Positions 436-5,060 of a DNA stretch of 10,257 nucleotides are shown here, piece by piece. Each line of letters opens with the position of its first letter. Position 1 is the first letter of the stretch. Position numbers and translations under genes: made by a program. The notes under the pieces were generated by a model. It ran no database searches, was not told the origin of the DNA, and saw only the letters and a list, made by a program, of their open reading frames with translations. The stretch covers positions 1 to 10,257 of the forward strand of contig JAUWOB010000017.1 of assembly GCA_030612345.1 (NCBI GenBank). The letters are read 5' to 3'. This DNA is from Dehalococcoidia bacterium (lineage in GTDB: Bacteria > Chloroflexota > Dehalococcoidia > GIF9 > AB-539-J10).

Positions 436-456
436 ATACATAGTATACCGATGTAT
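436..456. promoter_or_regulatory. palindromic operator, copy 1 (fatty-acid operon)
   Basis: An imperfect 21-bp inverted repeat has left arm ATACATAGT (436-444), centre ATA and right arm CCGATGTAT (448-456). Seven of the nine arm positions are complementary. It covers the expected transcription start of the promoter at 403-430, a typical repressor position. It matches the operator at 5040-5060 at 18 of 21 positions; only positions 7, 12 and 13 differ. The regulator is not encoded in this window. The form would suit a homodimeric TetR- or MarR-like repressor, but that class assignment is inference. Confidence 0.75.
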
Positions 457-470
457 CGATAAGCAGTCAC

Positions 471-866
471 ATGCCTGAGAAAACCATCAGCTATGAAGAG
501 CTAATACCCGGCTACAAATTTCCTCCTGTCAGCTATGAACTGAATGCCTCTCTCGTCTCCAAGTATCTGAAGGCTGTGGATAGCGCTGGTGATGGCTTCG
601 TTCCGCCCTTGGCCATAACAGCCCTGGCCATAGCTACTATGGCAGGATCCATTCCCCTGCCACCGGGCATCGTGGCCATACATGCTTCGCAGGAGTTGGA
701 GTTCTTCAGGCTGGTGCCCGTTGGCACTACTATAGAGTGTCATATAGGAGTGGCAAAGAAGATAGCTCGAGGTAAAATGACAATGCTAGTCGTGGAACTG
801 GAGGTCCTCGATGAGGGCAAGGAAAAGGTGCAATCTGGAAAGGCAACTGTAGCGTTGCTGGCCTGA
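471..866 (+). CDS. HadA-like hot-dog subunit of (3R)-hydroxyacyl-ACP dehydratase
   Basis: This 131-aa cytoplasmic protein resembles the MaoC N-terminal (FAS1-type dehydratase) hot-dog fold. Conserved-looking parts are VPPLAITALAI around residues 44-54 and the strand segment ASQELEFFRLVPVGTTIE around residues 72-89, followed by the usual central beta strands. It lacks the catalytic Asp-x-Asn-x-x-His motif, as expected of the HadA type, which shapes the acyl tunnel and needs a catalytic HadB partner. That partner follows 7 bp downstream. Start: ATG 471 is the only plausible choice, since an in-frame TAG lies upstream at 441-443. No good Shine-Dalgarno site precedes it, so initiation may be weak or leader-dependent. 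First gene of the operon. The exact physiological substrate is inferred from the neighbours. Confidence 0.78.
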   Translation: MPEKTISYEELIPGYKFPPVSYELNASLVSKYLKAVDSAGDGFVPPLAITALAIATMAGSIPLPPGIVAIHASQELEFFRLVPVGTTIECHIGVAKKIARGKMTMLVVELEVLDEGKEKVQSGKATVALLA

Positions 867-873
867 GGAAGAG

Positions 874-1296
874 ATGCCTGCAGAGATTCAAGAAGGGAAG
901 GCCCTCGGTCCGCTGGTGAAACACATCAGTCAGGAGACCATCAACCTTTATGCCGAGGCATCGGGTGATTTCAACCCCATTCACATAGACGAGTCCTTTG
1001 CTGCCAAGACTCCGTTTAAAGGAACTATTGCGCATGGCATGCTTAGCCTGGCTTATGTGTCGGAGATGATGGCCTTAGATTTCGGCCAGAGCTGGCTATC
1101 TGAGGGTAAGCTTCGAGCCAGATTCAAAGAGTCCGCACGTCCCGGAGATACTCTGACTATCGGCGGCAAGGTTGATTGCCTTGAGCAAAGAGATGGTGTA
1201 TCATACGCAAACTGCAGTTTCGAATGTCGCAATCAAGAAGGCGAGGCGATAGTTGTGGGGGAGGCAACAGTCAGACTCCCGAGCTCTAAGAAATAA
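874..1296 (+). CDS. HadB-like catalytic (3R)-hydroxyacyl-ACP dehydratase (MaoC family)
   Basis: This 140-aa MaoC/R-specific hydratase-fold protein carries the hydratase-2 motif GDFNPIHID at residues 31-39, with Asp32 and His37 as the expected catalytic pair. A second conserved segment, GTIAHGMLSLAYVSEM, follows around residues 54-69. It should remove water from (3R)-hydroxyacyl-ACP to give trans-2-enoyl-ACP, doing the work of FabZ, which is absent from this cluster. Pairing with the noncatalytic subunit just upstream reproduces the mycobacterial HadA-HadB arrangement. GAGGAAG (865-871) overlaps the upstream stop codon and serves ATG 874 at close spacing. A plain (R)-enoyl-CoA hydratase is the alternative, but the FAS gene context argues for the ACP-linked dehydratase. 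Confidence 0.85.
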   Translation: MPAEIQEGKALGPLVKHISQETINLYAEASGDFNPIHIDESFAAKTPFKGTIAHGMLSLAYVSEMMALDFGQSWLSEGKLRARFKESARPGDTLTIGGKVDCLEQRDGVSYANCSFECRNQEGEAIVVGEATVRLPSSKK

Positions 1297-1300
1297 GAAT

Positions 1301-3358: not shown

Positions 3359-4630
3359 ATGGCTACAGTTCCTAAAGGCTCGACGAATTCCTGGCGCACG
3401 ATGGATGTGCCCAGGGTTGTAGTTACCGGTATGGGCACCATCAATCCACTGGGCTTAAGTGTGAGCGAGTTTTGGGAAGGACTGGTGGCAGGGAAGTCGG
3501 CCATCGGTTCCATCACCCGCTTTGATACCAGCAACTTCCGGGTGAAAGTGGATGCGGAAGTGCGTGACTTTGATCCCGCGAAGTACATGGATTTGAAGGC
3601 GGTTGACCGCACTTCAAGGACCATTCAATTTGCCATCGCTGCGGCGAAAGAAGCAGTACGATCAGCAGGCCTGGATATGATTCAGGAGAATCCTGAGCGA
3701 GTAGGTGTCATCATCTCTACTATGACAGAGCAGGGCTACATTATCAGAGGATGGGAGTTATACCAGAGGGTGGGTCCTAGAAGAGCCGACCCGCTCTTCA
3801 TCACGAAGTCTGGTGCCAGCGCGGCATCCATGCAGGTAGGAATGATGCTGGGGGCCAAGGGCCCTAACAACTCCGTGAACAGCCTTTGCGCCAGTGGCGT
3901 CGATTCCATAGGTACAGCGACGAATTTCATTCGGTTGGGATATACTGACGTAATGATAGCCGGGGGCTCCGACGGCAGTCTTGAGCCGGTCAGCATAGCC
4001 GGAATGGATGTTCTGGGAGCTCTTTCCCGTGAGTCTGACCCAGCCAAAGCCTCCCGGCCCTTTGACCTCAATCGTAGTGGTTTCGTCTATGGCGAGGGCG
4101 CCGGATTAGTTGTCCTGGAAAGCTATGAACACGCAAGGAGGCGGGGCGCACCTATCCTGGCTGAAGTTGCAGGGGTAGGCTGGTCCTTCGATGCCTTTGA
4201 TGCCACCGCTCCGGCCCCTGAGGCTGAAGCCTATGCTATGCGTACTGCCTTGCAGGGTGGTGAGGTGAAGATTGAGGAGGTTGATTACATCAACCCTCAT
4301 GGCACCAGCACCAAGCTGAATGATGCCTGTGAAACCAAAGCCATCAAAATGGTGTTTGGAGAACATGCTTACAAGATCCCGACAAGCGCTACCAAGTCGA
4401 TGATTGGGCATATCATTACTGCTGCTGGCGTGATTGAAACCATTGCCGCAATATCAGTGATGAACAAAGGGGTCATCCATCCGACCATCAACTACGAGAC
4501 TCCTGATCCCGATTGCGATCTGGATTATGTCCCCAATGTAGCTCGCCCGGCCAAGGTGAATGTATGCCTGAAGAATAGCTTTGGTCTCGGTGGTGAAAAC
4601 TGCTGTCTGGTGCTCAGGCGCATCACCTAG
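3359..4630 (+). CDS. fabF: 3-oxoacyl-ACP synthase II (KAS II)
   Basis: A 423-aa thiolase-fold condensing enzyme with the Cys-His-His triad: Cys177 in SLCASG, His314 in NPHGTST, and His351 in [12 protein letters not shown], with Lys346 nearby. It condenses malonyl-ACP with acyl-ACP to extend the chain by two carbons. The C-terminal [11 protein letters not shown] motif around residues 404-414 is also typical. ATG 3359 follows GAGGAAGGA (3341-3349) at good spacing, 5 bp after the fabL stop. A second ATG at 3401 would give 409 aa, starting just before the conserved VVVTGMG, but has no comparable ribosome binding site. It is the last intact gene of the operon; no fabH or fabD is in the window. Confidence 0.96.
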
Positions 4631-4650
4631 CGAAGCTCGGTCATGGAATC

Positions 4651-4928
4651 GGAGGTGGAGGAATCATTGCTTTCACCAACAGCGCGGCTCGAGAACTAGG
4701 TTCCCGTAACATAACCGTTAATGCCGTGGCTCCGGGCTTCATTGTTACCGCGATGACAGATAAGTTGCCTGCGGAGCGGAAAGGAAGGAACCCATATTGG
4801 CAATGATTCCACTGCAGTGCTTTGGCCAACCTGACCATGTGGCTGGACTCGTAGCTTTCTTAGCCAGCAAAAGGGCTGGCTATATGACGGGACAGGTCAT
4901 CACTATGGATGGCGGAGCATTTCCTTAA
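4651..4928 (+). pseudogene. 3' remnant of a fabG ketoreductase, frameshifted
   Basis: Starting at GGA 4651, one frame reads residues typical of the last third of FabG ([16 protein letters not shown], then [20 protein letters not shown]) until TGA at 4804-4806. Homology continues in a second frame as [10 protein letters not shown] (from about 4785), VAGLVAFLA and TGQVITMDGG, ending at TAA 4926-4928. The shift falls in the purine run near 4776-4787. The Rossmann loop, the catalytic Ser and Y-x3-K, and any start codon are missing. About 90 codons of a roughly 245-codon gene survive. It resembles canonical FabG rather than the operon's FabL, so it is not a recent duplicate of that gene. It begins 20 bp after fabF, which suggests a former operon member that was truncated. 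Confidence 0.9.
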
Positions 4929-5012
4929 CCGGGCGCCGGCGTATCAGGCCGATCTAGTATTGCCACGGTGAGTGGGACAGCCGGCGATAGGCAGCAGCGT
5001 CAAGGATGGGTA

Positions 5013-5041
5013 TTGACAAAAGGCCTTTCTAAGTCTATGAT
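5013..5041 (+). promoter_or_regulatory. sigma-A/sigma-70 promoter of the U32 gene
   Basis: TTGACA (5013-5018) is separated by 17 bp from TATGAT (5036-5041), one mismatch from the consensus -10. Transcription should start near 5048, inside the palindrome at 5040-5060. The leader to ATG 5150 is then about 100 nt. Confidence 0.82.
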
Positions 5042-5060
5042 ACATCGTATCACGATGTAT
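5040..5060. promoter_or_regulatory. palindromic operator, copy 2 (U32 gene)
   Basis: A perfect inverted repeat: left arm ATACATCGT (5040-5048), centre ATC (5049-5051), right arm ACGATGTAT (5052-5060). It begins inside the -10 box and covers the predicted start site, so a bound protein would block RNA polymerase. It is nearly the same sequence as the site at 436-456 and takes almost the same place relative to the promoter. Two such matches next to two strong promoters are very unlikely by chance. Confidence 0.8.

Follow-up and report, generated by a model that had tools for sequence, protein, structure and literature searches.

The proteins that control fatty acid synthesis differ between bacterial groups, FapR, FabT and FadR being examples. 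In Firmicutes, FapR is a global lipid repressor with sites before the fab and pls genes; it joins a DeoR-type helix-turn-helix to a hotdog domain and recognises an operator of the TTAGTACC type, which differs from the one described below. FadR-Sa, a TetR-family protein of Sulfolobus, reportedly regulates fatty acid genes. In enterococci, repression by FabT is strengthened by acyl-acyl carrier protein (acyl-ACP) made through Fak-PlsX, as an excerpt of the relevant study describes (PMC9083066). Excerpts on PadR proteins of the LmrR/LftR type describe dimeric winged helix-turn-helix (wHTH) proteins that act on palindromes (PMC4534193, PMC6457526). Here we analyse a 10,257-base stretch of DNA from an uncultured Dehalococcoidia bacterium (the window; one complete contig, C67, of genome G000, which comprises 0.96 Mb in 148 contigs and is 69% complete), in which one palindromic operator precedes both a fatty acid synthesis (fab) operon and a gene encoding a U32-family protein.

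The two 21-bp sites, operator 1 (436-456, ATACATAGTATACCGATGTAT) and operator 2 (5040-5060, ATACATCGTATCACGATGTAT), are identical at 18 of 21 positions. A first-pass annotation of this DNA had pointed out their likeness, the perfect palindrome of the second (9-bp arms around a 3-bp centre) and a near-consensus promoter at each, and all three observations are confirmed, with 12/12 promoter positions matching the consensus at the fab operon and 11/12 at the U32 gene. Operator 1 starts 5 bp 3' of its -10 box and operator 2 overlaps the final two bases of its own; both cover the transcription start point predicted from the promoter. Scanning the window with up to three mismatches returned these two places only, while 200 shuffles gave a mean of 0.01 and never two. 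A weight matrix built from 24 typed sites of relatives, both window sites included, scored the operators at 27.4 and 31.9 against 3.5 for the next-best place in the window, and found no place scoring at least 20 in 3 Mb of Markov sequence. Beyond the two operators, no further place was found in G000 at up to three mismatches; the weight matrix adds a third site in this genome, 5' of aroH.

We propose, with a probability of roughly 0.64, that both sites are operators of a single dimeric repressor controlling membrane-lipid supply, of which the likeliest candidate is a small PadR protein introduced below. Repression itself is suggested by operator position: a dimer on a palindrome spanning the start region would block initiation by RNA polymerase, and de novo synthesis, fatty acid uptake and acyl transfer would be expected to rise and fall jointly. 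The effector would most plausibly be an acyl thioester or a free fatty acid; the first-pass annotation had suggested an acyl-ACP, acyl-CoA or malonyl-CoA.

A motif scan of the genome and its relatives revealed the site to be conserved upstream of orthologous units, at positions fixed across the genus. Using ATACATCG-type arms and up to three mismatches, 19/20 genus genomes match compared with 3/20 for the reversed control, some of the former matches being chance-like in appearance. With no more than one mismatch allowed, ATAYATCG-N5-CGATRTAT yielded 58 sites in 36/52 genomes of the family, and its reversed counterpart yielded 2. A like pattern matched 39/84 genomes across the order, 36 of these within the family; among the other three, G058 and G068 carry the match inside frames and G082 carries it 5' of a DegV gene. 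Thirteen of the 58 family sites were flagged within a frame, of which four were judged by reading to be deep intragenic (G036:C90, G028:C139, G003:C57, G051:C39) and nine to fall where a start is over-extended or in a short frame next to a target gene. Target names were profile-tested on representatives (DegV, FakA/YloV, PlsY, long-chain acyl-CoA ligase, AroH) and otherwise read from translations. The sites precede the fab operon (11), DegV (13), the U32 gene (12, three of them common with a divergent acyl-CoA ligase), acyl-CoA ligase alone (3), PlsY (2) and an ACP with a ketoacyl synthase (1), these lipid and U32 groups totalling 42/58; the others belong to aroH (4), CstA (3), a LIV-type binding protein (1), a histone-deacetylase-like gene (1), a glycosyltransferase/glycerol-kinase-like pair (1), unclear contexts at contig ends (2) and the four intragenic places. 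In one genome, the DegV/FakB target gene is followed by FakA. Judged by these sequence comparisons, the site marks a genuine, coherent lipid regulon. As a separate observation, several genera (L085, L088, L095, L103) have LIV-type ABC transporter genes in line with DegV, and the substrate of this transporter may be a fatty acid or precursor.

A motif-independent check was made on 30 loci fetched by the first fab protein from metagenome genomes titled Dehalococcoidia, Chloroflexota or Chloroflexi; some of the contigs overlap those found through the motif, and L132 and L137 derive from one assembly. All 17 of the closest loci (L122-L138) possess the site, 33-44 bp 5' of the start codon, and its spacing after TTGACA-16-TATAAT is 5 bp in 16 and 3 bp in one; the site of L132 is weak (score 15.4). 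Among the 13 distant loci, four (L141, L144, L146, L147) carry the site 62-73 bp 5' of the start codon and nine have none at a score of at least 12, L148 among these having just 59 bp of upstream DNA. L147 additionally has a site (19.6) 5' of a DegV gene. The first-pass annotation had named two outcomes that would speak against a shared operator, namely frequent random occurrence inside genes and a failure of conservation upstream in relatives; neither came about, as 4/58 sites lie deep in genes and 17/17 of the closest fab loci carry the site.

The 13 aligned U32 promoters of the genus, which were fetched by the motif, place the site 109-110 bp 5' of the start codon in 12 cases; the exception (L039, 66 bp) is explained by a frame 14 amino acids longer. 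A second unit of promoter plus operator stands another 165-178 bp upstream in nine of the 13 and is absent from the window. In other genera the U32 gene and an acyl-CoA ligase diverge from a common operator, and in L138 the U32 gene lies directly 3' of the fab operon. The earlier idea of one regulatory site for both units thus gains support from a position kept across the genus, from rarity deep in genes and from the recurrence of the site at further fatty acid genes. The stretch that follows the U32 operator (window 5061-5090) is itself strongly kept in the genus, possibly as a leader peptide or an untranslated-region element; Rfam returned no match there.

aroH was found in 19/20 genus genomes, and a site scoring at least 16 is present at 9/19 of these loci, that of G000 included (TTATATCGCAATACGATGTAC on contig C48, score 24.9, 3' of a promoter-like TTGACG/CATAAT). 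The gene is adjoined downstream by a DAHP-synthase-like gene. At three aroH loci a second, weaker palindrome overlaps the first at a 15-bp offset. Such paired operator-like palindromes occur 5' of aroH and DegV (L211:1965-2000, L214:873-908, L216:2030-2065, L103:5985-6020), an arrangement that would suit two dimers bound next to each other.

No regulator gene is present among the six fab genes of the window, and none was read in the fab loci fetched from relatives. The regulator probably belongs to the PadR class, whose profile matches in 16/17 genomes searched and resolves into two widespread groups. One of these (group 2, our own name; approximately 110 amino acids) has about even odds of being the repressor. 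The evidence comes chiefly from G082, a genome of another family, where a one-mismatch site lies 14 bp 5' of a PadR gene, between a TTGACC-17-TATAAT stretch and the PadR start, with a DegV gene next; two further DegV genes of this genome carry the motif. In a tree of 33 rows, a subset of all PadR matches, the G082 protein joins group 2 (93/80). Group 2 is present in 12/13 of the site-bearing genomes tested, and in G035 its gene is convergent to plsX. A relaxed-pattern scan of 28 genomes gave 64 forward and 45 control matches and is mostly noise; its six exact matches fall at DegV (one in G056, two in G082), PlsY (G057), the fab operon (G022) and aroH (G013), and G082 gave eight matches against one in the control. 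The wHTH of PadR has two signature tyrosines, Y20 and Y42, according to an excerpt of the description (PMC6457526). GY and TIY/TLY/TVY columns are conserved in 13/13 aligned PadR sequences, and by our own matching these would correspond to the two tyrosines. The candidate also matches solved PadR chains.

A further PadR subgroup possesses ATATCG-N5-CGATAT 23-31 bp 5' of its own start codon in 4/4 members examined (exact in G003; one mismatch in G005, G008 and G032), a palindrome with the ATCG-N5-CGAT core and spacing of the lipid operator. This finding is post hoc; the fraction of shuffled regions reaching one mismatch is about 0.0002. Read from the upstream regions, it shows PadR proteins of these cells to be apparently set against this type of palindrome, and the odds on a PadR regulator are raised because the subgroup carries the core. 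No member of the subgroup turned up in G012 or G019, and the subgroup therefore cannot be the general regulator. Its tandem ATATCG half-sites lie between the -10 box and the start codon (L275:1057-1080, L280:980-1012, L282:988-1020, L285:974-1006) and are likely a self-control site. PadR group 1 was considered and set aside: it adjoins a conserved partner gene of approximately 300 amino acids in 12/13 loci (L187-L199), and its site-like stretch in G012 (9.0) consists of the first codons of the neighbouring frame, that of G000 (12.9) being the same stretch.

Several observations weigh against a lipid repressor of the PadR group 2 type. The site is missing at 10 of the 19 aroH loci of the genus, and aroH, CstA and the histone-deacetylase-like gene are not fatty acid genes. 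Group 2 is missing from site-bearing G030 (86% complete), and it occurs in 2/4 of the motif-free genomes tested. The tie between group 2 and the motif comes from a single genome of another family, was drawn post hoc and involves a noisy relaxed pattern, and group 1 is almost as similar to the G082 protein as group 2. Within the family, neither group has a site before its own genes. Finally, the operator order ACAT...ATGT is the reverse of the ATGT...ACAT read from the LmrR primers in an excerpted source.

The strongest competitor retains the operator and the regulon and assigns them to a MarR protein or to a family outside the regulator searches as such (XRE, Crp, ArsR, LacI, MerR, Rrf2, HxlR, DeoR/FapR), which we regard as possible though doubtful. 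A MarR candidate is favoured by MarR_2-type domains that match in 17/17 genomes. However, the TetR or MarR gene bearing the same site that the first-pass annotation had envisaged did not emerge among 37 fetched TetR and MarR_2-type loci (best score 8.8), many more MarR_2 matches being listed than fetched. TetR finds no support as a general regulator, TetR_N being detected in 3/20 genus genomes with no site at those loci, and GntR is nearly unsupported (any match in 7/17 genomes, above the cut-off in 2/17). DtxR/MntR-like proteins were rejected: they adjoin genes read as feoA-feoB, and metal control is therefore likelier for them.

A second competitor, which we consider unlikely, has the same operator and regulon served by a winged-helix protein of approximately 270 amino acids with DUF7839 (PF25211; for example L161:1468-2274). 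The domain occurs in 38/52 family genomes and 2/32 others of the order, is associated with the motif across all 84 genomes (27/12/13/32, Fisher p 4e-4), and is present in G082, one of the two non-family genomes with it, which has sites 5' of DegV; the protein pairs a MarR-like wHTH with another, potentially ligand-binding domain. Conversely, the association disappears within the family (26/10/12/4, p 1) and is not significant outside it (1/2/1/28, p 0.18), three genomes (G054, G056, G057) have site-like palindromes 5' of DegV or PlsY yet no DUF7839 match, and the DUF7839 gene is without a site in the loci examined. A structure model (predicted local distance difference test, pLDDT, 79.8) gave marginal MarR- and IclR-type matches, one at E <= 0.001, and does not indicate the ligand. 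The profile also matches in three archaeal controls. The gene adjoins an endonuclease-III-like gene in L161, L162, L163 and L176 and stands beside a CDP-alcohol-phosphatidyltransferase-like gene in L231.

A role for the palindrome in the transcript, as a hairpin at its 5' end instead of an operator in the DNA, is highly improbable. In the fab operon RNA, a 9-bp palindrome this close to the start point could form a fold, but transcription of the U32 gene is expected to begin inside the left arm, which would leave an RNA without most of it; moreover, the letters and not pairing alone are kept across unrelated genes, and the distance from palindrome to start codon varies from about 8 to more than 300 bp. 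Least probable of all is chance, or a resemblance between the sites of two unrelated regulators, which the mere two sites of the window would allow but which the 58 sites against 2 control matches and the fixed position in orthologous promoters, including 17/17 of the closest fab loci, rule out as far as sequence can.

A common repressor would also place the U32 protein among lipid genes. According to an excerpt of the work on U32-family TrhP and RlhA, both need prephenate for hydroxylation, and AroH makes prephenate (PMC6599085). Because aroH and the U32 gene carry the fab operator, in G000 also, and because relatives have the U32 gene divergent from an acyl-CoA ligase (other genera) or directly after the fab operon (L138), the circuit might conceivably join fatty acid synthesis to oxygen-free hydroxylation, in which the U32 protein of an anaerobe would use prephenate to hydroxylate an acyl chain or a lipid. 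We consider this a long shot: the TrhP model, tried on L065, matches at a score far short of the cut-off, and the aroH loci without a site (10/19) count against it too. The structure model of the U32 protein (pLDDT 57.1) best matches the U32 peptidase Mk0906 (5d88) and does not indicate the reaction.

Table 1. Positions of the genes, promoters and operators in the window, and of the candidate regulator gene elsewhere in G000
Feature	Position	Strand	Remarks
tRNA-Met	7-78		5' of fab operon; sole Rfam match in window
fab promoter TTGACA-16-TATAAT	403-430	+	12/12 consensus; kept in 17/17 closest relatives
Operator 1	436-456	.	Covers expected fab operon start point
FAS1-like dehydratase-region protein, 131 amino acids, fab operon gene 1	471-866	+	PF13452 above cut-off
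MaoC-like dehydratase	874-1296	+	PF01575
PlsX, phosphate acyltransferase	1301-2332	+	PF02504
Acyl carrier protein	2329-2574	+	PF00550
SDR-type reductase, read as FabG	2577-3353	+	PF13561/PF00106
Ketoacyl-ACP synthase, read as FabF	3359-4630	+	PF00109/PF02801
U32 promoter TTGACA-17-TATGAT	5013-5041	+	11/12 consensus; -35 box kept in 13/13 aligned promoters
Operator 2, perfect palindrome	5040-5060	.	Covers -10 box and start region of U32 gene
U32-family protein, 384 amino acids	5150-6304	+	PF01136 above cut-off; nearest solved chain 5d88 (sequence and fold)
Group-2 PadR of G000	G000:C12, L206:1438-1779	-	PF03551 above cut-off, 78.5 bits

The remainder of the window contains features that bear less directly on the operator. 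Between fabF and the U32 gene lies the remnant of a second fabG (about 4669-4925), comprising its C-terminal third only and broken across two frames; a full-length second fabG occupies this interval in 7/8 compared genus loci, and L040 has no copy. A 12/12 consensus promoter without an operator precedes a 52-amino-acid DUF3096 gene (6585-6818). The end of the window (7404-10256) encodes rpsL, rpsG and fusA, as read from translations, and bears no relation to the operator.

Should a PadR protein indeed prove to be the repressor, lipid control would centre on a family known from responses to drugs and phenolic compounds. Furthermore, the operator reveals co-expression partners of an orphan U32 protein, the function of which becomes testable. 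The literature searched yielded no PadR protein controlling fatty acid synthesis and no recognised fatty acid regulon of this kind from Dehalococcoidia or Chloroflexi, an entry for Chloroflexi in RegPrecise 3.0 being possible; that database holds 5 Chloroflexi genomes, according to an excerpt of its description (PMC3840689). The operator matches no motif that we recognise.

Compared with the described systems, this locus departs from FadR-Sa in that the TetR family is missing from 17/20 genus genomes. The candidate resembles the small PadR-2 type (LmrR, LftR) in its PF03551 match and in the solved PadR chains that it matches; LmrR and LftR control drug efflux, whereas the candidate is proposed to act on lipid genes. 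FabT, a MarR protein of Enterococcus and Streptococcus, differs in its operator, and here the DegV/FakB genes carry the site themselves and the operon has no fabT-like gene. As with FabT, however, one repressor would act through palindromic sites 5' of several fatty acid synthesis units, and the joint control of fab, FakB/FakA and PlsY envisaged here resembles the tie of FabT to fatty acid uptake via Fak-PlsX, as given in the excerpted enterococcal study (PMC9083066).

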